Assembly: GCA_013388455.1 (NCBI GenBank)
Contig: JACAFF010000003.1
Coordinates: 77,675-141,674 of the forward strand
Length of the DNA stretch: 64,000 nt
Direction of reading: 5' to 3'
Source of the DNA: Nitrospirota bacterium
GTDB taxonomy: Bacteria > Nitrospirota > Thermodesulfovibrionia > Thermodesulfovibrionales > SM23-35
The stretch's first letter is position 1. Each line of letters starts with the position of its first letter. The position numbers and the translations under genes were made by a program. The notes below the pieces were generated by a model, which searched no databases, was not told the DNA's origin, and worked only from the letters and a program-made list of their open reading frames with translations. Below, piece by piece: positions 14,253-34,930 of this stretch.

Positions 14253-15632
14253 TCATGGCATAGAATTTGACCTATAATCTTCTATAACATATACCCTATC
14301 TCTTCCCTCCCCTTTTGCAACATATAAAGCATTATCTGATCTTTTAATAAAACTTTCTATATCCTCACTTTCTGGATTATATTCAGCAATACCGAGACTG
14401 AGCGTAACTCTAACTTCTCTTTTTATATTTATTTTAAATGGATAATTTTTTACCATTAAACGAATCCTTTCTGCAATCTCCATTGCTGCTTCCATTGAGG
14501 TCTCTGGCAGAATTATAAAAAATTCATCTCCTCCATATCTACCGATTACATCGATATTACGTAGTGATTCTCTCATCAATAAAGAAACTTCTCTTAGTAT
14601 TCTATCTCCAACATCATGTCCATAAGTATCATTGATTCCTTTAAAATAATCAACATCAATTATTATCAAAGACAACTTAGAACCATATCTTTTAGCCCTG
14701 TTAATCTCCTCTTCTAATTTTTCTATAAGAGCCCTTCTATTAAGAAGTCCTGTCAGATCATCTGTACGTGAAAGGTGTTGCAATTTATCTAACATAAAAT
14801 CTCTTTCAGCTTCGATCATTTTACGATTTGTAACATCCCTTGTATATTCAATGACATGAGATATTTTTCCACCTTTAATAATAGGATATGTATAAATCTC
14901 TAACCAGATATTCATTTCTGGAGGAAAATTTATCTTTTTTTCTTTTGTCTGAGGTTTGCCTGTATCAAAAGTTTCCTTAACTGCACAATTATCACAAATT
15001 GTATTTCTTTGATATAGAACCTTGTAACACAAATTCCCTATCAACTGTTCAATACTTTTTCCTCTAAGCCGGGCATATGATTCGTTTGCCTTAACTATTC
15101 GATAATTATTATCAATAATATTAAACGGATCATTAATGCTTTCAAATATCATCTTGTGAAATATTTCAGATTCACGTAGAGCTAATTCAGAATTTTTAAG
15201 CTCTGTTATGTCAATCGCAATTTCCATTCGAACATAGCGCTTATCAGGCCAAAGAATTGCCTTGTCAATGCAATGATACCATCGCCCTGTTTTCTTATTC
15301 TGAAAACACCAGGTAACTGGTGGTGCTGGTTTGCCATTTATGAGTATACGATTGTTTGTACAAAATTCACAAGGCTTATTTTGTCCATCTTGAAATACTT
15401 CAAAGCATTTTTTACCTATAATATCATTACCATAATGATCTTTTATATATTTATTGACACGCAGGATATTATAATTCTCAATATCAGAAATATATACTAT
15501 CCCGTCAATTCCATCCAAGATTGAAAACATTTCATCCACTATCTCCTTCGCAGCTTCGATTTCTAGCCTTCTAATCCTATCTCTTGAATTTTTCTTATCT
15601 AATATATTTTTTGAACTTTTATATTTAACCAC
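14253..15632 (-). CDS. diguanylate cyclase with two PAS domains
   Basis: Predicted cytoplasmic signalling enzyme making c-di-GMP. PAS 1 spans about residues 35-145 and PAS 2 about 155-270. Both contain paired cysteines (C88/C91 and C213/C216) like the Cys-containing PAS domains common in sulfate and metal reducers. The GGDEF domain (about 285-450) has an intact GGDEF at 367-371 and an RxxD inhibition site at 358-361, so it should be active and product-inhibited. There is no membrane segment. It begins 21 bases after the stop of the octahaem cytochrome and is probably the last gene of that transcription unit. Confidence 0.9.
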   Translation of the reverse strand: MVKYKSSKNILDKKNSRDRIRRLEIEAAKEIVDEMFSILDGIDGIVYISDIENYNILRVNKYIKDHYGNDIIGKKCFEVFQDGQNKPCEFCTNNRILINGKPAPPVTWCFQNKKTGRWYHCIDKAILWPDKRYVRMEIAIDITELKNSELALRESEIFHKMIFESINDPFNIIDNNYRIVKANESYARLRGKSIEQLIGNLCYKVLYQRNTICDNCAVKETFDTGKPQTKEKKINFPPEMNIWLEIYTYPIIKGGKISHVIEYTRDVTNRKMIEAERDFMLDKLQHLSRTDDLTGLLNRRALIEKLEEEINRAKRYGSKLSLIIIDVDYFKGINDTYGHDVGDRILREVSLLMRESLRNIDVIGRYGGDEFFIILPETSMEAAMEIAERIRLMVKNYPFKINIKREVRVTLSLGIAEYNPESEDIESFIKRSDNALYVAKGEGRDRVYVIEDYRSNSMP

Positions 15633-15653
15633 TATATATCATCCTCTCAAAAA

Positions 15654-17045
15654 TCAAAACGAATCTCTGCCATATGAAAAAGAACCATGGTAATGGCAAC
15701 AATTGCAATTTATTGCCTCCCATAGTCTGTTACACGGTTGTAAGCCTCCTCCTCCACTTGACCCCCCATGGCAAGTATTACAACTGCCTCCTGTATAAAA
15801 CGGATCCGTAGAATTTCCGTGATGGATATGGTAATACCTATTTGGAGTACAATTTGTATCAAACTCATAATCATCTTTATGGCACCTATTGCATAGATAA
15901 GCCATCTCTTTATTTGTATCATTAAATGGTGGTATTTGGCCTGAAGTATAACAATTATCTGTTGATTGAATATTCGTTATAATACCGTTTAGTAATCCAC
16001 CATTTACTTCTCTCCTTATTAATACTCTGTTAGGTGAACCATGTGGTTCATGACAATCTGTGCATGCAAGCACCTTACCCATAATAGACCCATAAGGATT
16101 ATCCATACTTATTGCTATATCAGCATCTTTTTTACCATGTTTGTCACCAGAGGCACCCCAGTTAATAATTCTTAGATTTCTCCCGAGTGTAGAACTATAT
16201 ATAGTTGAAGTACTATGACAATCAGTGCAAAAAGTGACATAGTCTGTCAAGTTAGAACCATCTGTTGTAGTAGAACCGTCTGGTTCATAGGTGGTGGTAG
16301 AATAACGATAAGGAGCCTGATAATTTGCTGTATAATAACTCATCCTCTCTGTTGAATCGTCTCCCCAGAGACCCCATGCATTATTATCTGTACTATGCTG
16401 GCTTGGTCGAGAAACAGGCCATCCCCTATTGCCAGAAGTATGAAGGTCTCTCTGTGCCCTGTGAGGATTATGACAGGCATTACACGGATTTGAATCAGCA
16501 GTATATCCCCAGGATTTGCTGGTTATTAGAGTCTTAATATTATTAAGGTTATGAGAACTACCTGGATAAGTAAAAGAAAATGCCTCTAAAATATCATTTA
16601 ACGTGTCAGAGGTCCAGCCACCAGCACGATAACTATAACTACGGTTGACAATTCCACCAGACTGAAAAGAACTCAGATCTGTATGACATTTAAAACAAAA
16701 ATTATCCGTCTGGCTTACATGATTAATGTAAAATAATGCATAAGCATTAGGTCCGCCTGTAGGATTTGGTTCACTGCCACCAATCATCGCATGCTGTTCA
16801 TGGCAGTGTGCACAGTTGCCTTTTGAATAACCAAGTGCAGACAAACTCGTCCTGTCCACTCCGAAAGAAGTATCACCGTGAGCAGACTCGAGATAAGGAC
16901 CAGAACTTGCACTGTCAGGCAGAATAAAGCATAGAGATAAGAGCATAGAACATAAAACTAAGAACATTGAGCGAAGAGTAAATCTGCTCTTAATGTTCCA
17001 ATAGTTTCTAATGTAACAGTTTAGTTTCCAGAAACCCTTTTGCAT
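15654..17045 (-). CDS. octahaem c-type cytochrome
   Basis: Secreted or periplasmic electron carrier with eight CXXCH haem sites (CAHCH, CFKCH, CNACH, CTDCH twice, CNRCH, CNTCH, CNCCH) in 463 residues. A hydrophobic signal segment (about 23-45) ends in a D-S-A-S-S-G region. The C-terminus has a Gly-rich stretch (G-G-S-S-G-G-G-G) between the last two haems. Spacing between haems 2, 3 and 4 is wide, unlike the closely packed cytochromes further upstream in the unit. The signal peptide is partly encoded by a degenerate 7-bp repeat. Redox partner is unknown; the neighbours suggest extracellular electron transfer. Confidence 0.88.
   Translation of the reverse strand: MQKGFWKLNCYIRNYWNIKSRFTLRSMFLVLCSMLLSLCFILPDSASSGPYLESAHGDTSFGVDRTSLSALGYSKGNCAHCHEQHAMIGGSEPNPTGGPNAYALFYINHVSQTDNFCFKCHTDLSSFQSGGIVNRSYSYRAGGWTSDTLNDILEAFSFTYPGSSHNLNNIKTLITSKSWGYTADSNPCNACHNPHRAQRDLHTSGNRGWPVSRPSQHSTDNNAWGLWGDDSTERMSYYTANYQAPYRYSTTTYEPDGSTTTDGSNLTDYVTFCTDCHSTSTIYSSTLGRNLRIINWGASGDKHGKKDADIAISMDNPYGSIMGKVLACTDCHEPHGSPNRVLIRREVNGGLLNGIITNIQSTDNCYTSGQIPPFNDTNKEMAYLCNRCHKDDYEFDTNCTPNRYYHIHHGNSTDPFYTGGSCNTCHGGSSGGGGLQPCNRLWEAINCNCCHYHGSFSYGRDSF
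16921..16980 (-). repeat. 7-bp periodic repeat inside the octahaem cytochrome signal-peptide codons
   Basis: Read on the - strand the segment falls into heptamers such as TGTTCTT, AGTTTTA, TGTTCTA, TGCTCTT, ATCTCTA and TGCTTTA. They encode the hydrophobic core of the signal peptide (residues about 23-42). Confidence 0.65.
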
Positions 17046-17077
17046 CCCTAATTCTCCTAACTCTTACATGCCCCTAA

Positions 17078-17170: not shown

Positions 17171-17266
17171 AATTGCCTATTACTTTCTCATAAACTTTTT
17201 CCTTTACATTTGTCATTTAATGCCCTGTTATAAATGTTTAATGGCTTCTTTCTCTGACTAATGACT

Positions 17267-18511
17267 TTAGTCTTTTGACGTATGGCATACAATACATCCA
17301 TTCGTACCGCCGTTTCCCGGCCAGCCCTTATAATCCCATCGTAGTATTTTAAAATAAGGCGATGCATGTGCATGGTGACAAGAAAGGCACATGATCATGT
17401 CTGAGTTAAGAGTTACGACGCCACTCGGTGCTGTCCATCCGCTAAGACTCTGCCGTGCAACAGGAACAAGTGGGTCATAAGTCCCTGTACCACCGACCGC
17501 ATTAAATGCACTCGAATATTCTCCTGAGTTAGGGATAATCAAATCTGATGGATGTCTGATCCACGGACTACCAGTTGAAACATCATCCTCTATATGAAAA
17601 TTTCCATGGCAGCCAGTACAATATGCTGTCATAGTATTTCCCAAAGTTGAAAAACCTCCAGTGGATGTTTTAGTACCACTATACCCAAGATATTCGTTAT
17701 GATCTGTTGAGTCTGCATTATATTGCCAATCATCATCCTCAATCCCGGTTACACCACATCCGGAACCCAATTGATGACCATCTAAAAATCGATACCAGCC
17801 TTCATCAGCACTGTCAATTACAGGACCTGTATCATCAAGATGATGATAGCCTTTTGCGTAAGTGCCACTACCTATCATATGGCACTTTGTACATCCCTGC
17901 CTACCATCAAAACCAGCACCTACGACTGTTCCATGAATGTTGGCATGACAGCTTTCTGTCCCGCATGAACTATTTCCTGTATCACCGGGTGCAACAACTG
18001 GATTTAAAGTATCTTCCGGGTTCGAAGCTAAAACATTATGTCCTTTTGTGTCATCTGTTTGTATCCAATAAAAATTTCCTGCGGCAAGACCCTTAAAAGT
18101 ATTATAGGTAGGCTCTACAGTGTTGAATACAATTGGAGCCTTTGTAATATTATCCTGCCAAGTTATAGAATCTGTCTTTGAATGACACCCTAAACAGCTA
18201 TGAATTAGCATATTCCCTCTGGGGACATCAGTTTTTACGAAAGACGTGCCATCAAAGTCATAAGCTACAGCAACCCCATTCTGGCTGTTATGCATAGTAT
18301 GACAATTGTTACATGCACCAGTTACTTTTGCCTCCAATTGGTCAGTAAAAAGCAGAGCGCAAATAAGGATAAGCAAACAAAAAAATGCATTTTTTGAGTA
18401 TGCAGCCTTAATAAGGTCTATTGAGCTTTCCGTCTTCCAAAACTTCAAAAACTGTGTAAACCCAGTACACCTTGTAAGCACAGCAATTTTTACCAGCTTC
18501 CTTTTTTGCAT
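17267..18511 (-). CDS. OmcS-like multihaem cytochrome, six CXXCH plus one CX4CH
   Basis: Paralogue of the three hexahaem cytochromes at 31.1-34.9 kb. Shared order: CNNCHTMH, CLGCH, a G-N-F-Y-W and K-G-H-N-V block, an irregular Cys pair followed by CH, C-T-G-C-H-G-N-F-H, W-I-R-H-P, C-L-S-C-H-H-A-H-A-S, I-L-R-W-D-Y, C-I-V-C-H at the C-terminus. Here the irregular site is CX4CH (17945-17965), and one extra haem site, CTKCH, follows it. I start at ATG 18511; the reading can be extended to TTG 18532. The N-terminus is longer than usual before the hydrophobic signal core. Predicted secreted or extracellular. Confidence 0.85.
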   Translation of the reverse strand: MQKRKLVKIAVLTRCTGFTQFLKFWKTESSIDLIKAAYSKNAFFCLLILICALLFTDQLEAKVTGACNNCHTMHNSQNGVAVAYDFDGTSFVKTDVPRGNMLIHSCLGCHSKTDSITWQDNITKAPIVFNTVEPTYNTFKGLAAGNFYWIQTDDTKGHNVLASNPEDTLNPVVAPGDTGNSSCGTESCHANIHGTVVGAGFDGRQGCTKCHMIGSGTYAKGYHHLDDTGPVIDSADEGWYRFLDGHQLGSGCGVTGIEDDDWQYNADSTDHNEYLGYSGTKTSTGGFSTLGNTMTAYCTGCHGNFHIEDDVSTGSPWIRHPSDLIIPNSGEYSSAFNAVGGTGTYDPLVPVARQSLSGWTAPSGVVTLNSDMIMCLSCHHAHASPYFKILRWDYKGWPGNGGTNGCIVCHTSKD

Positions 18512-18561
18512 ATGCTTTTCTCTTAGTCCCAAGTTCTTTGCAATCTTCTAATCGCACTTTA

Positions 18562-19872
18562 CTACGACTTTTTATGGCACTGAATACACAACTGTCTTTT
18601 CCTGTCAAAATATAACATGAATTCAGCCTTTGCAGAATGCATACTGTGGCATGTGATACAGGTTATCGGTTTTCCATCTCTCGGATCTTTCACATTTTCG
18701 CCAAGTGGATGAGCAACTTTATGTTGTGCTACATGGCATCTTGCACATGTTTGAATCTCATCAACCTTAAAATATAGCTTATTGTTAGAATGTGGCGGTA
18801 CATGACATTCAAAACATTTTCTCTCTTTTATAGGGGTGCATCTGACAGGACTTGCTCTTAGTGCCTTTTCCATTGTGATAATTCTTCTTTCGGTAGTTTC
18901 ATGGCAAGTAAAGCATAGTAACGACTCTTTTACTGTAAGGGTTTTATTCTTTGAAGCATGAGGATTATGACACATTACACAAGCACCTTTTGCATCATTA
19001 ATATGAACATCTTTTTCTTTTAGCTTTGCTGGATCTACTTTGTGACAGTTAAAACATAAATTCTTACCAGACGATTTTGTTGTTATCTTTCTGTCAGTCA
19101 GAATAGGTTCATGACATTGTTCACACTTCTTTTCTAAAAATGCTGTATGTCCATAAGGTCCCAGAAGACTAATAGTATTAGATGCATGACCACCGTGACA
19201 TGAAGTGCAATCCATATTTTCTGTGGCAAATGTTATAGACACTTCACCAGCCTTACACTTCGCTGTATGGCATTTTTTACACATTCTATCTGGTTTATCA
19301 AGAAGCTGATTTTCTTCTGAAGATGCATGAGGATTATGACAGGATGCACATTCTCCTTCTTTAAAAGGCAAATGAGCATATGTCCTTTTGAGTTGCTCTT
19401 TTAACGTCTCGTGACAACCCCAGCAGAGGTTTTTCTCATCTCTTATCAGAAGATGTTTATTTTGTCCACCATGAGGATAATGACAATCAGTACAAATTCC
19501 TTTCTTCAGTGCCTGATGCACATAATTATTTTTGAGAGTCTTCTTAATGCCGTCATGACAACTTAGACAGAGGAAGTTAATATCTTCCTTTATCAAATCC
19601 TTCATGTTACTTGCATGCGTATCATGACAGACAATGCATTTCCCATCCTTAAATGGAAAATGTAGATTGTTACTTAACAGGCTTTCTTTAAGTTTTGTAT
19701 GACATTGATAACAAAGATCAGGTATCTTTGCTTTGAGCTCTCCCTCTGCGAAAGCAGATGCTGTGAATAATAAGAAGTAAATAGTAATCATTGTAATAAA
19801 CATAAGATTAGTTAACTTAACAAGCTTTTTATTATTTATTAATGACTTTTGATCATAGACTTTTTTATTCAT
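18562..19872 (-). CDS. 16-haem doubled-CXXCH cytochrome
   Basis: Periplasmic or secreted electron wire with 16 CXXCH motifs in about 436 residues. They come in pairs of the doubled-CXXCH type: H-x-P-F, then C-x-x-C-H-x-P-H-A-S, then about 15 residues, then L-C-x-x-C-H. A signal peptide (about 20-42) ends A-S-A-F-A. I choose ATG 19872, within ATGAATAA, so the start overlaps the stop of the 26-haem gene by 8 bases; the longer reading from 19899 is unlikely. The repeated unit resembles the 26-haem neighbour, so the two probably arose by duplication. Confidence 0.9.
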   Translation of the reverse strand: MNKKVYDQKSLINNKKLVKLTNLMFITMITIYFLLFTASAFAEGELKAKIPDLCYQCHTKLKESLLSNNLHFPFKDGKCIVCHDTHASNMKDLIKEDINFLCLSCHDGIKKTLKNNYVHQALKKGICTDCHYPHGGQNKHLLIRDEKNLCWGCHETLKEQLKRTYAHLPFKEGECASCHNPHASSEENQLLDKPDRMCKKCHTAKCKAGEVSITFATENMDCTSCHGGHASNTISLLGPYGHTAFLEKKCEQCHEPILTDRKITTKSSGKNLCFNCHKVDPAKLKEKDVHINDAKGACVMCHNPHASKNKTLTVKESLLCFTCHETTERRIITMEKALRASPVRCTPIKERKCFECHVPPHSNNKLYFKVDEIQTCARCHVAQHKVAHPLGENVKDPRDGKPITCITCHSMHSAKAEFMLYFDRKRQLCIQCHKKS

Positions 19873-21805
19873 GGCAATAGGAACAGTCTCCTTTGGCAAA
19901 AGGACTATGTTTCATCTGTTTAAGCAGACCGGGCCTTTCTGTTACATGAGGGACATGACAGCTCAAGCATCGATTGATTTTAGCTAATGGTTTTATATGT
20001 GCTTTAGACATCGTGTCTTTATCAGTTGAATGACATGTAATACATAATGCCGGGTCTTTAGCATTTAATAATTTCTTCAAATCAGATGAATGAGGTATGT
20101 GACAACTTATACAATCTCCTATCTCCATGGTTATATGCCCTTTTCTGACAGTTGTAGTAACAATTCTTTCATGGCATGAAAGGCATAGTTCTTTTGGATT
20201 ATTGAAAAGAAGATTTGTGATCATAGTTCCATGAGGACTGTGGCAAGAAGTACATTTCCCCTCTTCAACCGGTAAATGTATATATTCCTTTTCTTTAATA
20301 TTGTTCTGAACAGTCTTATGGCAATCATGACACAATTCAGGCATCGTCCGCACTGTGCTTGCTACATAATCACTTGCATGGGGGTCATGACAGATTCTGC
20401 ATGACTTTTCCCTGAATGGTTTGTGCTTTTTGTCTTCCGTAAGTTCATTAAGCATACTTCCGTGACAACTCATGCAAATCTGTTCAGGAGGATTATTTAA
20501 TAGGGTTCTATACGAGGAACTATGTGGTTTATGACAGGAAATGCATTTTCTCTCATTCACTGGTGTATGAATATAAGTCTTGAAGAAATTTTTCTCCTCC
20601 TTTTTGTGACATGAATAGCAAAGAGTAGCCATTGAAAATTTTAACAATGCAGGATTGTTGCTACCATGCGAGTCATGGCATTTTTTACATTCAAGTTTTA
20701 CAAATGGCTGATGCAGATATTTTTCTTTTGTTTCCTTATCAGTTTTATCATGACATGTAAAACATATCTTTTTTTCAGAGACCTCAAGATAATAAAGGTT
20801 TTCAGATGCGTGGGGATTATGACAGCTTGTACACCCTTTATCCTTTATTGGAGCATGCATCTTCGATTGCTTCATAATATCTGATTTTTTCTCATGGCAA
20901 TGAGTGCAGAGTGCTATCTTATCCCTGAAAGTAGCTCCGGGATAATCCGTCGCATGGGGATTGTGACATTCAAGACATTTACCTTCATCAACAGGGCGAT
21001 GTCTATGGGTCTGTTTGAAATTTTTCTCTTCTTTAATGTGGCAGCTATAACAGAGTTTACTACCTTGAGCAACAGGTTCAAGAGGTTTCGGATCTGTTAT
21101 TGGCTTATGACATGAAGAACACATACCCTCCTTTAGAGGCGTATGAACTGATTCACGGAGCAATTTGTCATTGGTTGAGCTGTGTGGTGTATGGCACTCT
21201 GTACATCTTCCTTTTTCAACAGGGTATTGTCTGTGAGCTTTTCTAAAATCATTCGATGAAATATTGTGGCATGACTGGCAAATGTCCAATTCTGCTTTGA
21301 TAAGATTATTCTTGTAGTTTGAACCATGTGCCGAGTGACATGTCGGACATCCTTCTAAAACTGGCTTATGTAGGGTTGGCCGGTTGAATGTGTCTTGCTT
21401 ATGGCATATAAAGCACTGTTCATTACCTACGTTTCTCTGAAGGGCTTTATTATCTGATGAATGCGGATAATGACAGGGAAGGCATTTACTCTGTTTTATT
21501 GCGGTATGTAAAAATGGCATTTTTTCAATTTCAGTCACTAATTCTTTATGACAAAGGAAACAGAGTTTTTTCTCATCACGCTCTTTGAGGGTAAGCACTG
21601 CGATCTTTCCATGTCTCAGATGGCAGGCTTCACAATCTTTCTTTTCCATCGGAGAATGGATATACTTCTTCTGAAAATCACTTAATGTTTTTTTATGACA
21701 ATCAAGGCATGGTTTTGCTTCAAATCCTCTTCTTTTTACCATTGGTTCAGATGCACATGTACATAAAAAACAAAAAGTAAATAGTATTATTATAAATTTA
21801 TACAT
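19865..21805 (-). CDS. 26-haem doubled-CXXCH cytochrome, possible lipoprotein
   Basis: Very haem-dense protein: 26 CXXCH motifs in about 646 residues, one per 25 residues. It is built from repeats of a unit with H-x-P, C-x-x-C-H-x-P-H-S/A-S and L-C-x-x-C-H. The final motif C-S-Y-C-H-E ends at the stop codon. The N-terminus is a short hydrophobic signal followed by C17 in an L-C-T-C context, which could be a lipidation site. ATG 21805 is preferred over GTG 21817. There is no membrane anchor otherwise. It may span the periplasm or the outer-membrane barrel as an electron conduit, by analogy with other large multihaem proteins. Confidence 0.9.
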   Translation of the reverse strand: MYKFIIILFTFCFLCTCASEPMVKRRGFEAKPCLDCHKKTLSDFQKKYIHSPMEKKDCEACHLRHGKIAVLTLKERDEKKLCFLCHKELVTEIEKMPFLHTAIKQSKCLPCHYPHSSDNKALQRNVGNEQCFICHKQDTFNRPTLHKPVLEGCPTCHSAHGSNYKNNLIKAELDICQSCHNISSNDFRKAHRQYPVEKGRCTECHTPHSSTNDKLLRESVHTPLKEGMCSSCHKPITDPKPLEPVAQGSKLCYSCHIKEEKNFKQTHRHRPVDEGKCLECHNPHATDYPGATFRDKIALCTHCHEKKSDIMKQSKMHAPIKDKGCTSCHNPHASENLYYLEVSEKKICFTCHDKTDKETKEKYLHQPFVKLECKKCHDSHGSNNPALLKFSMATLCYSCHKKEEKNFFKTYIHTPVNERKCISCHKPHSSSYRTLLNNPPEQICMSCHGSMLNELTEDKKHKPFREKSCRICHDPHASDYVASTVRTMPELCHDCHKTVQNNIKEKEYIHLPVEEGKCTSCHSPHGTMITNLLFNNPKELCLSCHERIVTTTVRKGHITMEIGDCISCHIPHSSDLKKLLNAKDPALCITCHSTDKDTMSKAHIKPLAKINRCLSCHVPHVTERPGLLKQMKHSPFAKGDCSYCHE

Positions 21806-21857
21806 TTTATACACCACAGTAATTATTTATAAGCAATTGCTATAAAGTCAAACAATT

Positions 21858-23480
21858 TCATCTTTGTAGTTTCACTTCAAGTGATTTGATAACATCTTCA
21901 TATACCAATATCTCAGCATCTTTCTTCAGTTGATTCACATATTTTTCAACAATTTCTTTAAATTTCTTATCATAAACTGCTTTGGAAACATCATTTTTTA
22001 CTTTTTCGAATTCTTCAATTGCTTCTTCTTGCTTTTCCAGAATTTTTATTATTTTATATTGAGAATTTGCTTGGATTACCGGGCTTAGCTCTCCAGTATT
22101 TAAGTTCTCTACAATATTTCTTAGAGGTTCAGATAATTCTCTTTTTGTAAACCAACCTGCTTCTCCACCCTTTGAAGATTCTGAGTCTATAGATTTTCTT
22201 TTTGCTATCCATGAAAAGTCTGCTCCATTACGAAGATTTTTTTCTACCTCTGTTGCTTCTTCAATCGTTTTTACTGTAATCTGCTGAATCCTATATTTAG
22301 CAGGGCTGAGAAATTCTGTTTGATTATTTTGATAATATTCTTCCAAATCAACTTCAGTAATAGTAATCTGTGGTTTGATAACTCTTTCAGTAAAAGTTTT
22401 TTTAAGGAGCTGGTTTTCATAACGATGAATCATTCGCTGAAGGTCTTTACCTTTTTCATAGTGTCTGCTTAAGGCTTCAATATCTATTAGTTTTCTCTCA
22501 ATCCAGCTATTCAATAAATCATCAGTTGATTTAATTCGAGACGACTTAATTAACTTCATAAATTCTTCTACAGATAAAACTTTTTCTCCATTGATTTCTA
22601 CTAACACTTCTTTATCTATTAATGATGAATCCTTTTCCTCTTTTTCAGTAATCTCTTTAATCTCTGCTAAAAGTTCACGATTTATCTTCACCTTCATTTT
22701 TTCACGTAGATATTGAAGGTATTTATCACTTAGTTCTTTCTCCTTTTTCTTTCTGATCTCTTTTTCTATACTTTTTTGTAATTTTTTGAATTCGTCCTCT
22801 GGTGCTGCTTTTCTCTCAATAAGTTTGACAATATAATATTTGTCTTTATTGTTTATAACGTCGCTGATTTCTCCTGGTTTTAGATTTACTATTACATTTT
22901 TTAATAACGGATTCAGCGTCCCTTTTAGTAAGATAATCTCGCCTCCTTTCTCTTGTGAAGAATGCAAGGAATATGCCACTGCTATCTGCTTAAAATCTAC
23001 GTTATTTTTTAACTGCCCTAAAGCCTCTTTTGCCTTTTCTTCCGAATCAGTTTCTATATAACCTATGGTGAAACGTTCATAATTACACTTGTAATATTCC
23101 TTAATTTCCTCTTCTGTCACAGAAACCTTTCTAACAATTTCTTCATCATGAAGTCTTACCACAGATTCCCTGAGTATATAAGCATCAATAGCCTGTTTAA
23201 TTTCAGGAAGTTTATCCATACCCGATTTTCGTGCTTCCTGAATTATCAATTCATCATCTATCAGTTTCTGAATGTAATTTTTTAAATCTATCGAGCCAGC
23301 TGATGATAGATCTTCTCTTCTATGTGATATTGTCAACACATATTTTAAATCTTCCTCAGTCATAGGTTCACCATCTACAATTGCCAGAACCAGATCATCT
23401 CCTGTTTTCATTGACGCACAACCAAGCAGGAGAGTGAACATTAAGCAATAAACTACAAGCAATAATTTTTTCATCGCCAT
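21858..23480 (-). CDS. parvulin-type peptidyl-prolyl isomerase lipoprotein (two PpiC domains)
   Basis: SurA/PrsA-like folding factor of 540 residues. A lipoprotein signal ends in L-L-L-G-C (lipidated Cys at 21). Then come a helical chaperone part, a first parvulin domain (about 130-240, with S-S-Q-E-K-G-G-E-I) and a second (about 370-480, with S-S-K-G-G-E-A-G-W-F). The start may be ATG 23480 or the ATG two codons on (23474); both overlap or abut the upstream gene. The position directly before two giant cytochromes suggests it helps fold or export them. Parvulins also accompany omcS-like loci in Geobacter as I recall. Confidence 0.88.
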   Translation of the reverse strand: MAMKKLLLVVYCLMFTLLLGCASMKTGDDLVLAIVDGEPMTEEDLKYVLTISHRREDLSSAGSIDLKNYIQKLIDDELIIQEARKSGMDKLPEIKQAIDAYILRESVVRLHDEEIVRKVSVTEEEIKEYYKCNYERFTIGYIETDSEEKAKEALGQLKNNVDFKQIAVAYSLHSSQEKGGEIILLKGTLNPLLKNVIVNLKPGEISDVINNKDKYYIVKLIERKAAPEDEFKKLQKSIEKEIRKKKEKELSDKYLQYLREKMKVKINRELLAEIKEITEKEEKDSSLIDKEVLVEINGEKVLSVEEFMKLIKSSRIKSTDDLLNSWIERKLIDIEALSRHYEKGKDLQRMIHRYENQLLKKTFTERVIKPQITITEVDLEEYYQNNQTEFLSPAKYRIQQITVKTIEEATEVEKNLRNGADFSWIAKRKSIDSESSKGGEAGWFTKRELSEPLRNIVENLNTGELSPVIQANSQYKIIKILEKQEEAIEEFEKVKNDVSKAVYDKKFKEIVEKYVNQLKKDAEILVYEDVIKSLEVKLQR

Positions 23481-25085: not shown

Positions 25086-25099
25086 ATATAAATACCTCT

Positions 25100-25127
25100 C
25101 ATTAGTCATCAGTCATTTGTCATTAGT
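25100..25127. repeat. degenerate 7-bp tandem repeat, copy 2
   Basis: Heptamers CATTAGT, CATCAGT, CATTTGT, CATTAGT in a row, followed by a CCAGTGACT tail to about 25146. It separates two lipoprotein genes. Confidence 0.75.
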
Positions 25128-25729: not shown

Positions 25730-27990
25730 GTTAGATTTCCTCCAAAAGTAAATGTCTCTGTTTGTATTTCATCTTCATCACGTTTGTAATTAAAATTTAG
25801 TTGCAAATCCAGGAATTTTGTTATGTACCAGAGCACATATCCACTCAATATGTGAGACGTTGTCAATTGTGGTTCTGTTTTCATATATTGATATTGTGCA
25901 TTTAATCTTATTGCTGGTAACAGAAGCCAGTCATACAAGAAGCCGCCTGAAATTGTTGTATCTCCATCAGAATTTAATATCTTCAAGTTAGTTGAGAGGC
26001 TAATAAATCTTCCTGGCCTGTAAGTCAAGATTAAAGAACCGTCATGTAATCTATTTGCTTCCTTTCCTGATGTCTGCGAATACCCATATGACATATTCCC
26101 GGACCATTTATCTGTTAAGCGTGCATCAAGAATTGCTCTTATGTATTTTGATGTAATATCACCAGGCATATCTTCATATGTAGTCGTCTTTGTATATCCG
26201 ATATCAGTTATCATATTTACATCTCTGTGAAAACGTAAACCCATAGCTAACAGGTAAATGTCGCCTGTCGATTGTTTTTCCTGGAAACTATAATGATATG
26301 TCCTTATAATCGAAAAATTTGCATTGAGTGTTGGTAGTGGGGTTGAATTTAAAGTAAGTGAATATGTATCAGTCTTTAGATCTGTCTCAAATTTATTATC
26401 AAATGACTCATTTCTCTGGTACCTGACTGTTGTGTCAAGTTTTCTGTGTATAAGCCAGGCTGCACTTGCCCCATACGTTCTCGTTACATTACTTTTCAGC
26501 TCAGTATTATTTCCATTAAAGGATTTAGTGAATATGCTTTTGAAAGCATCTCCGACAGAATCAATAAATGATTTTGGTTCCTGATCAGTTCTGTTTAAAA
26601 AATAATTAAGTGTAAAGGTTAAACGCTTAAAAGGCTTTAGATTTGTATTGAAATTAATACCATGTGTAAAGAATGTTGAAACATCGGTAAGCTTACCCGA
26701 AGCTGGTATTATATCTGTTCCAAATGCCTCAATCTCTGTTACAAAAACATCATTGGTTGTTGAATTTTCGATATTGACAGCTTTATAAAACAGACTTGTT
26801 TGTGGTTCTAAGAAATGCAGTTCATACCTGTATATATTATTCAGAGGATCATAAAGAGATGTTGTTATATTCTCTAATGATATCTCTATCCATGTACCAG
26901 GCTGATTAAAATCACTTCTATAAATTCGCCAGTTAACAGGATTTATGAGATTTGTATCTGGTGTTATGTCTTTATTTACATAGATAATTAGAGTATCAAC
27001 AGCTATATCTGAAGAAAATAATTGAATCCCGATATTATTAAATTTACTACCATTCTGTCCTATATTGATATTGCCGATAGCAGTGGTAACAGGTGCAGTA
27101 TAGATATTATCACTCAGCGATAAAACTAATCCCAATATCTCTACATCTGGCTTCAGTTCAGTTCCAATCCCATATAATCCTGAAGAAGGTGTCCTTTCAA
27201 AGGATACTTCACCTGTTTGTGTTGCATATTGTTCGATTTTAGTACGAGAATAATTACCTTGATATCCTGCTGCTATGTTTATAAAATCCTTTAACAATGA
27301 TTTTGTATAACTTAGATTGTATAAAGCGTTAAAATTTCCAGTCACCGTCTTAGAAATCATACTTACAGGTGTTCTATTTTCGTTATAAATGTATGTAATG
27401 TTATATGCTGCTTTTAACCCTCTATACTGAAGGTCATACCATGAGCTTCCTGTATATTTATCATTTGTTGTGTCTGTTTGTTTTGGAGAAAGATAATCGT
27501 AATCTTTTTGTTTATCATATTGTAAAGATAAGGAAGGTAATTTATATGGGATAATGTTTAACCTTGAATAATAGAACTCTGTAGTTTTTCTGCTGTCATT
27601 ATGTAAATTTGCAGTTGACCACTGTTCAAGTCGCCGTATTCCTGCATCAAGACCATATACAGGATGCCTGAAATTAATATCAAAAGCAGGTTCTATTGCA
27701 CGCTGATATTTTGTTGTCTGTATATCATTTTCAGCGGTTACATGAGAATTAATCAAAGTCGTCCTGAGATATAAATGATAGGAAATAATTGCAGTAATTG
27801 ATTTATCCAGATTAAAATAACAATTTTGTGAAAAACTATCAGAGTTTTGAATTCTTTCTCCCTCTTCATATTGACTTGTATCAATATAATTCATATTTAG
27901 TAATGCACCCATCCCTTCAGCAAATGCATTTGAATAAAATAAAAAGGTTACTACTGTTATAAATATAAATTTCCATATCGTATACTTCAT
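25714..27990 (-). CDS. large outer-membrane beta-barrel protein
   Basis: 758 residues with a signal peptide (1-24, cut after A-F-A). Long amphipathic beta-strand patterns follow, with many alternating aromatic residues, and the C-terminus ends in F-W as outer-membrane barrels do. A central insertion (about 300-425) has a discoidin- or carbohydrate-module-like look (T-L-I-I-Y-V-N, W-R-I-Y-R-S-D, V-T-E-I-E-A-F-G) and may face outside or form a plug. No N-terminal CXXC of MtrB type is present. No family name recognised. As the only barrel in the cytochrome block it is the candidate channel for cytochromes or electrons. Confidence 0.8.
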   Translation of the reverse strand: MKYTIWKFIFITVVTFLFYSNAFAEGMGALLNMNYIDTSQYEEGERIQNSDSFSQNCYFNLDKSITAIISYHLYLRTTLINSHVTAENDIQTTKYQRAIEPAFDINFRHPVYGLDAGIRRLEQWSTANLHNDSRKTTEFYYSRLNIIPYKLPSLSLQYDKQKDYDYLSPKQTDTTNDKYTGSSWYDLQYRGLKAAYNITYIYNENRTPVSMISKTVTGNFNALYNLSYTKSLLKDFINIAAGYQGNYSRTKIEQYATQTGEVSFERTPSSGLYGIGTELKPDVEILGLVLSLSDNIYTAPVTTAIGNINIGQNGSKFNNIGIQLFSSDIAVDTLIIYVNKDITPDTNLINPVNWRIYRSDFNQPGTWIEISLENITTSLYDPLNNIYRYELHFLEPQTSLFYKAVNIENSTTNDVFVTEIEAFGTDIIPASGKLTDVSTFFTHGINFNTNLKPFKRLTFTLNYFLNRTDQEPKSFIDSVGDAFKSIFTKSFNGNNTELKSNVTRTYGASAAWLIHRKLDTTVRYQRNESFDNKFETDLKTDTYSLTLNSTPLPTLNANFSIIRTYHYSFQEKQSTGDIYLLAMGLRFHRDVNMITDIGYTKTTTYEDMPGDITSKYIRAILDARLTDKWSGNMSYGYSQTSGKEANRLHDGSLILTYRPGRFISLSTNLKILNSDGDTTISGGFLYDWLLLPAIRLNAQYQYMKTEPQLTTSHILSGYVLWYITKFLDLQLNFNYKRDEDEIQTETFTFGGNLTCRFW

Positions 27991-28068: not shown

Positions 28069-29694
28069 TTAAGGGAACATTGTTACTCCATAAGGTTTTT
28101 TACCAACAGGAATTATCCTTTCCTCTTTCATTGTTGTTTTGTTTATAACAGAGACATTATCAGAACCCCTGTTTACGACATAAATATTTCTACCTTCTGG
28201 ATCCATTATGAATGTTCTCGGTGAGATGCCTACAGCTATAGTGTTAATAACAGGTGATAGGGCTATCCCTACGCCAAAGGTTTCTGAGTATGGCCTTATA
28301 ACAAGAATTTCACCTGGATATTCTCTTAAGAGATACAATCTATCAAATTCTGGATCAGCTATGATTCCCACTAAAGATGTACCTACACCAGTAAGGTCAT
28401 AGACAGTAGAAGTTTTATTACCTTTAATTAGTTGAAGAATGTCTATAATTGTCAGATTATCGTAAGCGTTATTAGCTACATAAACCTTTGCTTTCTGATA
28501 ATCAACAGCAAGTGATATGGGATTCCACTGGACATTAATATCTATAATCTCATATGGTCTTCCTGTATTTAAGTCCATCTTGATTACAGAAACATTCTTT
28601 GAATTCCTGTTTGCAACATACACGTTGAAGTATTTTTCCCTGTATTTATGCATAAGATTAATCGAATTAAAATTTAAATATCTTGAACCTGATAAACTTG
28701 TAACAGGTGGGTCTACTGCTATGGCTATAGGTCCATCTCCAACTTCTATTTTATCTATCTCCTGATATGTTGATGCATCAATAAGCGATATGTTTTGAGA
28801 ACGATAGTTCGCAACAAATACAATCTCTCTATCATGCAAAATTTTTGCAACCGCAATCCCCTCTGGTTCTCTTCCGAATCTCACTGGTATTTCTATTTCA
28901 ACCTTATGTGTAGTCGGATCAATAACTGATACACTGTTTGACCCTGAATTAGCGACATATATTCTCGGACGTTCTTTACTCTGGCTTGATGCAATACCCC
29001 TTGGATTTTTACCAACCTTTACAGTTGCTACTACATCACCTGATTGCCTGTTTATGACCGAAACATTATCTGAATGTTCATTGGTCACATATATCAACAT
29101 TGAGCTCAATTCTGGAATCTGCTTTTCGATAGTAAAAAAAGGATTGAAAAGATATCCGTCTTTAATTGATAAATCTGGATTCCATGTTATAAAAAGTGAA
29201 GTATTCTGGTTTTTCTGTATTTCGAAATTGATATCTACGTCGATGTTCTCAGATGGAAGAGCCAAATGAGCTTTTTGTTTATCTCTTTTTAAAAACGCCT
29301 CTTTAACTGTAAAACTTAGTTTCTTAAATCTGCCTTCAGGAATCATCTTCTCACAGAGACGTATTTGCTTGCCGCTAATATCATGTGAATTAAAAGTAAC
29401 GGTGGTGTCTATCATCTCCCTCGAAATATTATCTTCTGTGATAGCTTTTATTTTTGTAATAATAAAAGTAATGTTCGTTGAGGTTCGTGAAGGTGTTTTC
29501 AAATAGACTGTTACTTGACCATCAGCTTCTTTCGTAACATCAATATCCTGTTGAAGTGTTGCACAACCACATATTAAAAGCGAAGTGCAAAGCATGAAGA
29601 ACGTGCAGAAAGCAGATGTTCGCAATGACAATTTAGACAGACATTTAGCCATGTTATTGCTATATTTGAAAATATATTTTCTATATTTTGTCAT
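28069..29694 (-). CDS. YVTN-type beta-propeller lipoprotein
   Basis: Lipobox near residue 44 (L-L-I-C-G-C). An N-terminal beta-sandwich-like part (about 50-200) is followed by seven or so YVTN-type blades beginning with L-I-Y-V-T-N-E-H-S-D-N-V-S-V-I and ending with I-Y-V-V-N-R-G-S-D-N-V-S-V-I. Such propellers serve as surface binding scaffolds and sometimes bind cofactors. The first codons may be over-called: an in-frame ATG at codon 15 sits closer to the signal. It lies upstream of the barrel gene on the same strand. Confidence 0.82.
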   Translation of the reverse strand: MTKYRKYIFKYSNNMAKCLSKLSLRTSAFCTFFMLCTSLLICGCATLQQDIDVTKEADGQVTVYLKTPSRTSTNITFIITKIKAITEDNISREMIDTTVTFNSHDISGKQIRLCEKMIPEGRFKKLSFTVKEAFLKRDKQKAHLALPSENIDVDINFEIQKNQNTSLFITWNPDLSIKDGYLFNPFFTIEKQIPELSSMLIYVTNEHSDNVSVINRQSGDVVATVKVGKNPRGIASSQSKERPRIYVANSGSNSVSVIDPTTHKVEIEIPVRFGREPEGIAVAKILHDREIVFVANYRSQNISLIDASTYQEIDKIEVGDGPIAIAVDPPVTSLSGSRYLNFNSINLMHKYREKYFNVYVANRNSKNVSVIKMDLNTGRPYEIIDINVQWNPISLAVDYQKAKVYVANNAYDNLTIIDILQLIKGNKTSTVYDLTGVGTSLVGIIADPEFDRLYLLREYPGEILVIRPYSETFGVGIALSPVINTIAVGISPRTFIMDPEGRNIYVVNRGSDNVSVINKTTMKEERIIPVGKKPYGVTMFP

Positions 29695-30041: not shown

Positions 30042-30989
30042 TTACCCTTCAGGTTTAAAAACTTGTATCCTGTCATTGTATGTATCAGCTACAAAAATTC
30101 TGCCTTTATTATCAACAGCAATATTTGTCGGATACTGAAACCAGCCTTCACCCCACCCAAGTCCACCAAATTCGAATAAGTATTTGCCATTTGCGTCATA
30201 TGCAAGAACAGTATGTCGCATATAATCTACGACATATTTCATTCCAGTTCGCTCATCTACTGAAACTGCCTGCGGACGACTTAATTTCCCAGCACATCCT
30301 CCCTTATCGCCAAATCTATACAGGAACTTTCTGTTTTTATCATAAACATAAATATGTCCTTTTTCTTCACTTACAAGATATATATTTCCAGTTTTATCGA
30401 TTGTTGCATAATCTAATTTTACTTTTTCACCCTCTTCTTCAACGATCATAATATCTAAAATCTTACCTTGATTATTAATCACTATAACTCCTGGAAAGTA
30501 AGACCCTGTTACATATATATTCCCGTTTGAATCAATTGCAAGATTATTAGGAATAAACAAATCAGATCCATCAAAATTCTCTAAATATATATCGCGCTCC
30601 CATTTAAGTCGGGCATTAAAAACAGATATCCTGTGCTTTGGATAATGCTGGGTGTCTCCTTGTGCAATGTAAAGATTACCTCTGTCATCAACTGTTAAAC
30701 CATATGGATTTTCGATACCATCCTTTTTAGTAAGAGTAAATACAGGAAAAAAATCAGATGTATATAAAATAATTTTATTTTGACTTATTACATATATTTC
30801 ATCTCTTATAGGTTCTATAAAAACTAAAGAAGGAAATAACAATCTATCGTTATTTTCATCTTCTGTTATACTGTCCAGATACTTTACAGGAAAATCCTGT
30901 TGTGCAGAGATATCTGAATGAAAAAAAATTGTAAGTGATAATATGATAATTTTGCAGAAGCAATTAATAATTTTTTCACAAATTTTCAT
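30042..30989 (-). CDS. NHL-repeat beta-propeller protein
   Basis: A signal peptide (about 1-29) is followed by NHL blades with the usual I-A-V-D-x-x-G-x-I-Y/F-V-A-D pattern, for example P-Y-G-L-T-V-D-D-R-G-N-L-Y, N-L-A-I-D-S-N-G-N-I-Y-V and N-I-A-V-D-N-K-G-R-I-F-V-A-D-T-Y-N-D-R. Length 315 suits a six-bladed propeller. NHL-repeat proteins occur next to omcS-type genes in Geobacter as far as I recall. It lies 3' of the strongly expressed-looking cytochrome, separated by a terminator hairpin. Confidence 0.87.
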   Translation of the reverse strand: MKICEKIINCFCKIIILSLTIFFHSDISAQQDFPVKYLDSITEDENNDRLLFPSLVFIEPIRDEIYVISQNKIILYTSDFFPVFTLTKKDGIENPYGLTVDDRGNLYIAQGDTQHYPKHRISVFNARLKWERDIYLENFDGSDLFIPNNLAIDSNGNIYVTGSYFPGVIVINNQGKILDIMIVEEEGEKVKLDYATIDKTGNIYLVSEEKGHIYVYDKNRKFLYRFGDKGGCAGKLSRPQAVSVDERTGMKYVVDYMRHTVLAYDANGKYLFEFGGLGWGEGWFQYPTNIAVDNKGRIFVADTYNDRIQVFKPEG

Positions 30990-31020
30990 ATTAAAACTTT
31001 TAAAACCTAATTAAATTCAA

Positions 31021-31056: not shown

Positions 31057-31081
31057 CTAAACACACTATAACTTTAAAAGT

Positions 31082-32236
31082 TTAACTTCCGGTATCTTTC
31101 GTCGTATGGCATATAAAGCAACGTGTCGCATCCGCGCCAGTGCCTGCACTAATATCCTCATAATTCCATCTTAGAATATCGGCATTAGCAGATCCATGAA
31201 CCATATGGCAGGAGAGACACATTACGATAGCGTCATTGGTACCAGGAGTTGCTGTATTTTTTGGTAATGGATAATTTGCACTATTGATAGTATCAGCTCT
31301 TGCAACTGGTGCATTAACACTATACGTGGATGCAGCACCACCACCAACTCCACCATTATAGTATTGGTATTCAGAACTATTAGGCAGAATTATGTCTGTG
31401 GGGTGCCTGAGCCATGGAGAACCAGTCGCGGTATTGGTAATATCGCTTCCAACAGCCCGTGGTCCATGGAAGTTGCCATGACATTCTGCGCAAAGCCCAC
31501 TAATAGTTCCACCGCCAGGAGTTGTTGCACTTCCAGCCTCTACCCCATCGGTAGCACCTTTATACTCATTGTGGTTGTTCGAGTCTGTATTCTGCCAGTT
31601 TGAAGCTTCTGCGCCTTTAACTCCTTTTAGAAACCTGTAACTGAGTGCTGTTGTACCACCCTGTGCTGTTTCATCAAGAGATGCTCCGAATTTTAAAACA
31701 GTATCGTTTACATGGTGTGATCCTTTTACAGCTGCATAACTGTCAGCAGCGGTGCGATCACCATGACAGCCATATAATCCACCACAGGTAAAATTCGCTG
31801 CGGTAATTGCCTGCGCATATTCATCACCTGGGGGAGGGAACATTGCATCGTATCCTTCTGGATTGCCAAGTTCTGATACATTGTGTCCAACTGTATCTGG
31901 ATTTGCAACGGCTACAGAGTCATTAAGATCAACATTTTTACTACCGATAATATATGCAAAGTTTCCGCCTGCAAGATCTGTTGCATTAGTATGAGCAACC
32001 TGAGGAGTATTATTTACTATATTTTGTCCTGTTGTTAGACCCTGTGAATGACATCCGTAACAGCTTCCTTTTAGTAGAACTCCGTAAGGACCACCAGCAG
32101 CTACAACCTGACCATTTTGCATATTGTGCATGGTATGACAGTTTGAACATGCACCTTGTGCTACTGCACCAGCTACACCACAGGTCAAAAATACGCAAAA
32201 TGCAGCTAAAATTCCTATTACTGTCATCTTTTTCAT
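31082..32236 (-). CDS. OmcS-like hexahaem cytochrome, main paralogue (five CXXCH plus one CX5CH)
   Basis: Secreted cytochrome of 384 residues with a signal peptide (1-27, cut after A-V-A-Q or G-A-V-A). Haem sites: C30-H34 (CSNCHTMH), C59-H63, an irregular C151-x5-C157-H158, C249-H253, C340-H344 (CLSCHMVH) and C373-H377. Spare histidines such as H37, H118 (G-H-N-V), H174/H175 and H279 could be distal ligands. The order matches OmcS-type filament cytochromes. A perfect ribosome-binding site AAGGAGGTGA and its own promoter and terminator suggest high, separate expression. Filament formation is inference. Confidence 0.88.
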   Translation of the reverse strand: MKKMTVIGILAAFCVFLTCGVAGAVAQGACSNCHTMHNMQNGQVVAAGGPYGVLLKGSCYGCHSQGLTTGQNIVNNTPQVAHTNATDLAGGNFAYIIGSKNVDLNDSVAVANPDTVGHNVSELGNPEGYDAMFPPPGDEYAQAITAANFTCGGLYGCHGDRTAADSYAAVKGSHHVNDTVLKFGASLDETAQGGTTALSYRFLKGVKGAEASNWQNTDSNNHNEYKGATDGVEAGSATTPGGGTISGLCAECHGNFHGPRAVGSDITNTATGSPWLRHPTDIILPNSSEYQYYNGGVGGGAASTYSVNAPVARADTINSANYPLPKNTATPGTNDAIVMCLSCHMVHGSANADILRWNYEDISAGTGADATRCFICHTTKDTGS

Positions 32237-32737: not shown

Positions 32738-33823
32738 TTAATGACCTTTTCTTGTATGACATTTAAGACATCCCTGTCCTGATAAATCATTTTGTATCGT
32801 AATCTTTGTATAATCCCATCTGAGAATATCAGGGAAAGGGCTTGCGTGTGCACGGTGACATGAGAGGCACATAACTATGCTGTTTTCATCAACTTTTTGC
32901 TCTTTACCTGTAGGGTTTTCATAAGCAACAGGCACTTCAAGACTGTAAACAGTGTAATCTTGATATTCAGAATAGGCATAATTTCCATGAATAGCCCCAA
33001 ATGCAATATCAGTAGGATGTTTATACCAGATGGAATTATAAGCTTGTCCAACTTCTGTTTCTCCCCCAAGTTTTGGATGAGGATGAAATTTTACATGGCA
33101 CTCACCACAAAGATAACTGATTGTATTCATAGTATCATGGCTAATATCTCCGCTATAACCATTATGATCATCAACTGTAGCCATATATTCCCAATTTTTA
33201 TGCTCTTTCCCATTTATACCATAAAGAAACCGATAGCTCTTTCCTGTTGTTGATCCATCAATTACTGAATCGTCTTCGTGATGTGCTCCATAAATCGAGA
33301 TATAAGGGTCTTCAAATGTTCTATTTCCATGACACCCCCATGTTCCAGAACACGTAAGTTGCTTATCTTCTAACCAATATGTAGGACCAAGTCCTCCTGG
33401 GATAGTTACATTTTCTTTGAAGCCAGGAGGCATATTCATCGGAGTATTTTCTTTTATGGATATCGCACGAACATTGTGTCCTTTTGAATAATCAGGATTA
33501 AAACCATCTGCAACATAATAGTAATTGCCTCCTGCAAGATCTGCTTTATCCATTTTATGTATTATTTGAGGTATTCTTGTCTTGCCCTTTGTAATAATAT
33601 TCAATTGGCCTTCAGGTTCTTGTCCATGACAACCAATACAACCACCTTTTGTTAGAACAGGGAATGGTCCTTCACGACTACCAAACGTTACTTCTTTTCC
33701 CTCATAGCTATAATGCATTGTGTGACAATCCTTGCATTTACCTTTTACACGGGCTTCAGAAATACCAGAGACCAGAACATTAAACAACAAGATAAAAATA
33801 TTTATGATTATTACTTTTCTCAT
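32738..33823 (-). CDS. OmcS-like hexahaem cytochrome, second paralogue (five CXXCH plus one CX5CH)
   Basis: Secreted cytochrome with sites CKDCHTMH, CIGCH, the irregular CX5CH (33329-33352), CGECH, CLSCHRAHAS and CLKCH at the C-terminus. It also has L-A-G-G-N-Y-Y-Y-V, K-G-H-N-V and Y-K-H-P-T-D landmarks shared with its paralogues. I start at ATG 33823, which puts the signal peptide (M-R-K-V-I-I-I-N...) at the N-terminus. A 25-residue longer reading from 33898 is only translated 7-bp repeat. It is probably co-transcribed with the paralogue ending at 33908. Confidence 0.87.
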   Translation of the reverse strand: MRKVIIINIFILLFNVLVSGISEARVKGKCKDCHTMHYSYEGKEVTFGSREGPFPVLTKGGCIGCHGQEPEGQLNIITKGKTRIPQIIHKMDKADLAGGNYYYVADGFNPDYSKGHNVRAISIKENTPMNMPPGFKENVTIPGGLGPTYWLEDKQLTCSGTWGCHGNRTFEDPYISIYGAHHEDDSVIDGSTTGKSYRFLYGINGKEHKNWEYMATVDDHNGYSGDISHDTMNTISYLCGECHVKFHPHPKLGGETEVGQAYNSIWYKHPTDIAFGAIHGNYAYSEYQDYTVYSLEVPVAYENPTGKEQKVDENSIVMCLSCHRAHASPFPDILRWDYTKITIQNDLSGQGCLKCHTRKGH

Positions 33824-33838
33824 CTCTATCGACTTACA

Positions 33839-33893
33839 GTCAATGGTCATTGACTGCTGATTGTTGTCCAGTGACTGGTGACTGTCTTTTAGT
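33839..33893. repeat. degenerate 7-bp tandem repeat, copy 4
   Basis: A run of diverged units around GTCAATG, GTCATTG, and the opposite orientation CAGTGACT and GGTGACT, between two hexahaem cytochrome genes. It extends the downstream reading frame by 25 false codons. Confidence 0.7.
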
Positions 33894-33907
33894 GCCAAAT
33901 GACTTTT

Positions 33908-34930
33908 TTATTTCTCTGTATGACAAATCAAACAGCCTCCCTTCCCTTCTTCTCCTGTAAATATAGCGTCATAATCCCACCGCAATATAGAATCATATGG
34001 ACTTGAATGGGCTACATGACACGAAAGACATAGCACAACATCTTCCCCTAATTTCACCTCATCACTTGATATCTGAACAGGATTTGTTCTTCCAACCGGA
34101 GCATCAGTGTTGTAAATTCTTAAATTTGGTCTCTCTAATAGCGGTGGATTTTCAGGATTATAATTTACATACTCTCCATGATCAGGTAATAAAATACCAG
34201 TTGGATGTCTGAACCAAGGACTCTTTTTTGAGTCTGTATCTTTCAAATGAAAAGAACCATGACAGCTTGCACACAATATATCTATTGAAACTGCATATTC
34301 ATTATGCTTCTTTGAAGTGCAATTCTTATTCCATTCTTCATCTTCAAAACCAATCACTCCATTTACCTTATCTGTATTTTTTAAATATCGATAGCTTTTA
34401 GCTGTTGTAGTTCCATCAAGAGGTTTATCAGGAGCGTGATGCGTTCCTAAGATTGCACGGAATGGATCTTCAATGTTTCTGTTTCCATGACAGCCGTTAG
34501 AACCTGAACATTTCAATGTATTTTTATTATTGTATCCAACTATAGAAGGATCATATCCTCTTTTATAGCCTGGAGGGGTATTCATAAATTTTGAGTCTGT
34601 TAAAGCAATTCCATCGACATTATGTCCCTTTCTATCACCATATTTTTTTGTAACATAGTAGAAATTTCCTCCTGCAAGGGGATAATCTGGTTTTACAGTG
34701 TTATTGACTATTGGGACTTTACTATTTCCAAGTATTTTAATGGTTTCAGCGTTAGAATTTGAATGACAAACTATACATAAAGTATATGGTAAATCCTCTT
34801 TTGGTACACCAGGAAATAAGACATGACAGTTTTCACAATCCCCAGAAACTGAAGCAATTGAATAATTTAAAAGCATAAGGTTAATAAAAATATTAATCAG
34901 AAATATTAACAAGATATTATGTCTTTCCAT
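33908..34930 (-). CDS. OmcS-like hexahaem cytochrome, third paralogue (five CXXCH plus one CX5CH)
   Basis: 340 residues with a signal peptide (1-27, V-S-G near the cut). Haem sites: CENCH (without the TMH that follows in the others), CIVCH, the irregular C141-x5-C147-H148 (34487-34510), CASCHGSFH, CLSCHVAHSS and CLICH. It shares L-A-G-G-N-F-Y-Y-V, K-G-H-N-V and W-F-R-H-P-T-G with its paralogues. It is the shortest of the four and the first gene of the block. There is little sign of a ribosome-binding site before the ATG. Confidence 0.86.
   Translation of the reverse strand: MERHNILLIFLINIFINLMLLNYSIASVSGDCENCHVLFPGVPKEDLPYTLCIVCHSNSNAETIKILGNSKVPIVNNTVKPDYPLAGGNFYYVTKKYGDRKGHNVDGIALTDSKFMNTPPGYKRGYDPSIVGYNNKNTLKCSGSNGCHGNRNIEDPFRAILGTHHAPDKPLDGTTTAKSYRYLKNTDKVNGVIGFEDEEWNKNCTSKKHNEYAVSIDILCASCHGSFHLKDTDSKKSPWFRHPTGILLPDHGEYVNYNPENPPLLERPNLRIYNTDAPVGRTNPVQISSDEVKLGEDVVLCLSCHVAHSSPYDSILRWDYDAIFTGEEGKGGCLICHTEK

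Follow-up and report, generated by a model that had tools for sequence, protein, structure and literature searches.

The 64,000-nucleotide stretch analyzed here (the window) comes from contig JACAFF010000003.1 of a Nitrospirota bacterium (GCA_013388455.1), and its positions 14253-34930 carry fifteen open reading frames (ORFs), all on the minus strand, that constitute a divergent member of the osc (OmcS-companion) operons known from Geobacter. Its genes are homologous to and collinear with those of osc loci, four of its cytochromes belong to the OmcS family, and cytochrome and accessory genes co-occur tightly across genomes. The operon probably serves to export and charge an OmcS-like filament, with export, polymerisation and charging carried over by analogy from Geobacter. 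A first-pass annotation, made from the letters alone, had listed the gene set on one strand and taken it for a candidate extracellular electron transfer locus. The list is borne out, the gene families being backed by Pfam and NCBIfam (the barrel by its AlphaFold2 model), and the genes do form a coherent, co-occurring set related to an extracellular electron transfer system. Its further statement that the combination was undescribed is not, as the osc system was already known and the window holds a divergent member of it. The main novelty lies in a separate Nitrospirota lineage, a CX5CH haem site, and the loss of a linking histidine in one particular paralogue.

In G. sulfurreducens the osc operon, GSU2504-GSU2493, encodes OmcS, OmcT and OscC-OscJ, according to Shen 2025 as cited by PMC12977616 and PMC13194489. 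Its eight-gene block GSU2500-GSU2493, downstream of the OmcS-like genes, has been linked to nanowire maturation and secretion (PMC12977616). PMC13194489 gives the roles as folding for OscH, secretion for OscE, OscF and OscG, and morphology for OscD, and it equates OscI with GSU2495 and OscJ with GSU2494. GSU2495 has 26 haem motifs (PMC2996986), and GSU2497 is a lipoprotein (PMC3495685).

The window shows the osc order when read from 30989 down to 18562. An NHL beta-propeller (30042-30989), counterpart of the NHL gene adjacent to omcS in osc loci, is followed by a YVTN beta-propeller and probable lipoprotein (28069-29694; LICGC), a large outer-membrane beta-barrel (25714-27990), an LpoB-like lipoprotein (lipoprotein 2, 24501-25109), a protein with two CsgG/LpoB-like domains (23471-24511), a lipoprotein with two parvulin stretches (21858-23480; LLGC), a cytochrome with 26 CXXCH motifs (19865-21817) and one with 16 (18562-19899). 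The 26-haem protein corresponds to OscI (GSU2495) and the 16-haem protein, by order, to OscJ (GSU2494). We match the YVTN protein to OscD, the barrel to OscE, the lipoprotein to OscF, the double CsgG-like protein to OscG and the parvulin protein to OscH because they fall in these places when counted back from GSU2495, a match of order and number made on loci other than that of G. sulfurreducens itself. Profile-profile comparison (hhalign) of the window lineage with Desulfuromonadia-type sets, from which a bridging Nitrospirota locus (L027) was excluded on the window-lineage side, gives 99.9-100% probability for seven components: NHL (99.9%, E=5e-32), YVTN (100%, E=2e-54), barrel (100%, E=2e-57), the OscF counterpart (100%, E=1e-40), the OscG counterpart (100%, E=1e-53), parvulin (100%, E=1.5e-55) and the 26-haem protein (100%, E=3e-144, 37% identity). 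Aligned identities to the Desulfuromonadia-type profiles run from 17 to 37%, and homology of the 16-haem protein to its osc component is by hidden Markov model (HMM) and position only.

A contig scan across phyla, anchored on the OmcS of L027, recovered loci in Geomonas, Citrifermentans bremense, Geomobilimonas luticola, Geobacter sp. L1geo and H2geo, Anaeromyxobacter, Nitrospira and Desulfobulbaceae; PMC12977616 names several of the carriers. Read in stop-to-stop frames, these loci regularly show NHL, OmcS, YVTN, barrel, lipoprotein, CsgG-like, parvulin, 26-haem and 16-haem genes in that order. From YVTN to the 16-haem gene, and allowing for one inserted OscF-like gene, the window matches six loci throughout (L034, L035, L037, L040, L047 and L077) and two more as far as the 26-haem gene (L052 and L056). 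L027 itself has the osc order and contains, inside the operon, an OmcS 53% identical to that of G. sulfurreducens. OmcS genes in Thermodesulfovibrionia have been noted before, by automated annotation (PMC8478452).

The gene-order check that the first-pass annotation proposed finds the window arrangement in no fewer than 25 other Nitrospirota loci (some truncated where their contig ends or missing single genes) as well as the osc order in many Desulfuromonadia loci. The Nitrospirota order is cytochromes A, B and C, NHL, YVTN, barrel, lipoprotein 1, lipoprotein 2, double CsgG-like, parvulin, 26-haem, 16-haem, cytochrome D and octahaem. The co-occurrence check has the same outcome: among 61 genomes, 19 have both an OmcS-like gene and the barrel, two have only the OmcS-like gene, none has only the barrel and 40 have neither, and the split for OmcS-like genes against the OscF-like lipoprotein is identical (19/2/0/40). 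Trees place the window-type loci in one clade without intruders for barrel (support 1.0), CsgG-like (1.0), parvulin (0.83) and 26-haem (0.65) proteins, and the OmcS-like proteins of the lineage form a clade of 59 (support 1.0) apart from OmcS. By these comparisons the window locus is a separate osc lineage, so far found only in Nitrospirota by a cross-phylum scan that used OmcS-type patterns only. A search of viral contigs for the barrel returned nothing.

Several features distinguish this lineage from the osc operon. There the NHL gene precedes the OmcS genes, whereas in the window lineage it follows the upstream OmcS-like genes; the usual position does not define osc loci, since L067 likewise has OmcS before NHL, and the window arrangement is a variant order, not a loss. 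Lipoprotein 1 (25151-25729; GNA1162/LpoB/CsgG-like) is an extra OscF paralogue, seen only in the Nitrospirota lineage among the loci examined. Some Geobacter-type osc loci have a downstream copy of NHL, where the window instead has an OmcS-like gene (cytochrome D, 17267-18532), a copy that the Nitrospirota lineage typically has at its downstream end, and an octahaem cytochrome (15654-17045; 8 CXXCH) conserved at that end. The octahaem sequence has no match among Protein Data Bank (PDB) sequences, and its profile finds one borderline chain (E=0.05), which is uninformative. Several relatives have in addition, upstream of their OmcS-like genes, a cytochrome of 14-19 haems (L020:327-1775, L025:17506-18651 and L021:18567-19732) that the window does not encode.

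The four OmcS-like cytochromes are A (33908-34930), B (32738-33898), C (31082-32236) and D, and they are all the OmcS-like genes that the host genome has. With a profile built from 34 OmcS-like proteins, OmcS (6EF8) is matched at 2.4e-35 over chain residues 8-406; the next PDB matches, nitrite reductases, stand at 1.7e-5. The window proteins share with OmcS (6EF8, 6NEF) the motif order, six haem motifs, a similar length and distal histidines, including (in three of the four) that of CXXCHxxH. The third motif is changed, and where OmcS has DPH downstream of haem 3 they have HH. Where OmcS is recognized by six CXXCH motifs, A, B and C have five plus a CX5CH (CSGSNGCH in A) and D has six plus a CX4CH, so we file them, on sequence grounds, as OmcS-family relatives rather than as OmcS. 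The haem counts first given thus stand for the 8-, 16- and 26-haem proteins and need this amendment for the OmcS-like ones.

The histidine that links subunits of the OmcS filament is reportedly (in a 2019 Cell paper) that of the first motif, CXXCHxxH. Donation of one ligand of haem 5 by the neighbouring subunit has been described in PMC6584659, and PMC9473688 also describes a haem ligand that comes from the neighbouring subunit. In the Nitrospirota clade 47 of the 55 members that could be scored retain this histidine, B, C and D among them. The eight others are cytochrome A, which reads CENCHVLF, and its seven orthologues from other loci, all with Phe or Tyr at that place. This pattern makes B, C and D candidate polymer subunits, and A probably not one.

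The proposed mechanism runs as follows. The OmcS-like cytochromes would be exported unfolded to the periplasm and receive haem there from a CcsBA-type system, assisted in folding by the OscH-like parvulin lipoprotein. Their way out may be an outer-membrane platform composed of the OscE-like barrel, the OscF-like lipoproteins and the OscG-like double CsgG-like protein, and outside the cell they would polymerise into a haem-stacked filament, each subunit donating a histidine to the next, with the OscD-like YVTN propeller influencing filament form. Electrons could reach the filament base from the 26- and 16-haem proteins, which are probably periplasmic. B, C and D, with the linking histidine, are the candidate subunits; A, lacking it, would more plausibly act as a cap, as a base or as a separate carrier; and the third haem would be attached through CX5CH (CX4CH in D) in place of CXXCH. 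It is a tentative proposal that the Nitrospirota osc lineage, a second and deeply separated one, builds conductive filaments from three or four different OmcS relatives per operon that attach their third haem through CX5CH, that cytochrome A is a dedicated non-polymerising cap or anchor of the filament, and that the export platform contains both OscF-type lipoproteins.

A number of points weigh against a filament made in this way. Single OmcS-like sequences find no match among PDB sequences, which indicates a distant relation to OmcS only, and the OmcS-like proteins form a clade separate from OmcS. For cytochrome C, AlphaFold2 gives a model (pLDDT 49.5) that is too poor for a fold search. The CXXCHxxH histidine is what we take to be the subunit-interface ligand to haem 5 of the neighbour. 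For the window lineage, filament, export and electron transfer are all what we infer from Geobacter, and the osc roles come from later papers in the form in which these cite Shen 2025. Some strains, moreover, are reported to reduce Fe(III) oxide and to grow on anodes without needing OmcS (PMC13194489 and PMC11077965).

The exported cytochromes might, then, remain monomeric or form short surface complexes, the machinery being used but no filament made. The divergence from OmcS, the altered haem-3 motif, the several paralogues per locus and the missing linking histidine of A would all suit such an outcome; PMC12977616, moreover, stresses that wire formation is known for OmcS alone and that some loci have a GSU2501-type protein only. 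Retention of the CXXCHxxH histidine in most of the clade and the preserved count of six motifs speak against it, and we regard it as a doubtful alternative, though one to be taken seriously, to an OmcS-like filament.

The altered third motif raises a question of its own. Among the 59 clade members, 54 have CX5CH or CX4CH and the remaining five have six CXXCH motifs. CX5CH itself is present in 52 proteins, mostly as CxGxxGCHG, and is followed by HH within the next 42 residues in 52 of 52; it aligns at the position of the haem 3 CXXCH of OmcS. Motif totals (CXXCH plus variant) are 5+1 in 36 members, 6+0 in five and 6+1 in 11. As the motif total is thus preserved, we think that the CX5CH site carries a haem. 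The cysteines could instead form a disulfide or be vestigial, leaving five-haem proteins, and no paper in the searched library pairs "CX5CH" with "heme". Against this stand the alignment with the haem-3 motif, the sixth CXXCH that some members have instead, the six or seven motifs of most members and the invariable HH pair, so that a haem-free site seems unlikely. Some OmcS-like proteins of the window lineage reach seven motifs, with CX5CH and an additional one (L023:15894-17039 and L025:14872-16053). The window also encodes a CcsBA-type (ResB plus CcsA-like) cytochrome c maturation system at 7145-9667, about 5 kb from the locus. It is the only such system recognised in the genome, which has one ResB gene and in which CcmE was looked for and not found, and therefore presumably matures the CX5CH sites too.

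The barrel calls for separate treatment, having been taken at first for the outer-membrane channel of the locus. Its AlphaFold2 model is a confident large beta-barrel (pLDDT 85.7) of about 26-28 strands; a beta-rich domain at residues about 280-430 is inserted between strands about 12 and 13. It has no Pfam family at E<=0.1 and no match among PDB sequences. Like the MtrCAB and porin-cytochrome conduits, the locus combines a large outer-membrane barrel with multihaem cytochromes in an operon, and the barrel could be an MtrB-type sheath that carries electrons across the outer membrane around one of these (the 16- or 26-haem one, for example), in which case the OmcS-like proteins would be reductases at the surface. 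The barrel is of MtrB-like size, and MtrB (6r2q_B) gives both the lowest root-mean-square deviation among the VIA matches listed (Z 14.7, 5.9 A over 373) and the highest Foldseek TM among the matches listed (0.35/0.39). This fold match is not specific, as many unrelated TonB-dependent barrels score equally. The 26-haem protein also scores above the threshold set for the DmsE decahaem model (272 against 192 bits), probably on account of its many doubled CXXCH repeats. An MtrC/MtrA-type pair is absent around the barrel, however, and the barrel gene is flanked by the propeller and CsgG/LpoB-like lipoproteins, as in a secretion module, rather than by genes for periplasmic and outer-membrane cytochromes. 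Its counterpart by order, OscE, is proposed for secretion together with OscF and OscG in the osc model of PMC13194489. An MtrB-type conduit is accordingly quite improbable, and the barrel is better read as part of an osc export platform. The layout is indeed neither MtrCAB nor porin-cytochrome, as first remarked. To call the locus complete goes too far, as it encodes no inner-membrane or trans-membrane conduit.

The genes were also said to be mostly overlapping, which holds for four of the 14 junctions (by 16, 11, 10 and 35 bases); seven have gaps of 9-92 bases, and three have long ones (501, 347 and 221 bases). Tight junctions run from the barrel gene to the fourth cytochrome, and the long gaps set other parts off, so that several transcripts are possible. 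These three gaps would favour the view that unrelated genes for secretion, propellers and cytochromes lie side by side by chance, a notion refuted by the order conservation across phyla and the co-occurrence in 61 genomes. Several TTG and GTG starts are uncertain, and the true start of cytochrome B is probably the internal ATG of MRKVII. Promoter and terminator signals are no more frequent in the locus than in shuffles. Pfam recognizes GGDEF and PAS domains, the two parvulin stretches and the YVTN and NHL propellers; LpoB, GNA1162 and CsgG matches to both lipoproteins and to the longer double-domain protein are weak. The PAS-PAS-GGDEF protein (14253-15632; RxxD before GGDEF) is probably co-transcribed with the cluster. 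It is an accessory gene and not a stable or core member of the set in which it was first listed as the regulator, being poorly conserved beside the locus: it is adjacent in L102, lies three genes off in L105, and is not beside the octahaem gene in L014, L104, L106, L108 or L113. An Rfam scan of window positions 9000-40000 gave no match up to E=1, and hence no c-di-GMP riboswitch was seen.

The host genome (2.1 Mb, 44 contigs, 99.4% completeness) also encodes dsrA, for dissimilatory sulfite reductase. A full nanowire-assembly gene set, of a distinct lineage, in such a genome means that bacteria outside those studied for conductive filaments may make them. Comparison of the two lineages supplies sites for experiment (the CX5CH motif, the linking histidine that some paralogues retain and others lack, and the OscF duplication), and the osc genes that are invariant between them are thus probably the core machine.

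The same genome has two mutually similar clusters of barrel, propeller and cytochrome genes, L135 (G000:C14:36000-50000) and L136 (G000:C3:36000-48000). They encode 7- and 4-haem cytochromes, NHL-propeller lipoproteins, 9-12-haem cytochromes and a protein of 578-593 amino acids without a Pfam match that looks barrel-like by eye. They are likely outer-membrane electron conduits, and better candidates for trans-membrane conduits than the barrel locus of the window. Elsewhere in the window, positions 36930-41096 carry arsenosugar-type glycosyltransferases (TIGR04282 and TIGR04283) on either side of a BioB-like radical SAM ORF and a 602-residue fusion of 4Fe-4S and CCG domains with a VTT (DedA-like) membrane domain; a protein like the YedF-type selenium metabolism sulfurtransferase adjoins them (41248-41838). 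At 10838-14182 an NAD-dependent epimerase, a serine palmitoyltransferase-like enzyme (589 bits against a cut-off of 640) and a GNAT protein form a trio, possibly for sphingolipid-type lipid synthesis, whose members are also neighbours in another genome (G014, at L102).

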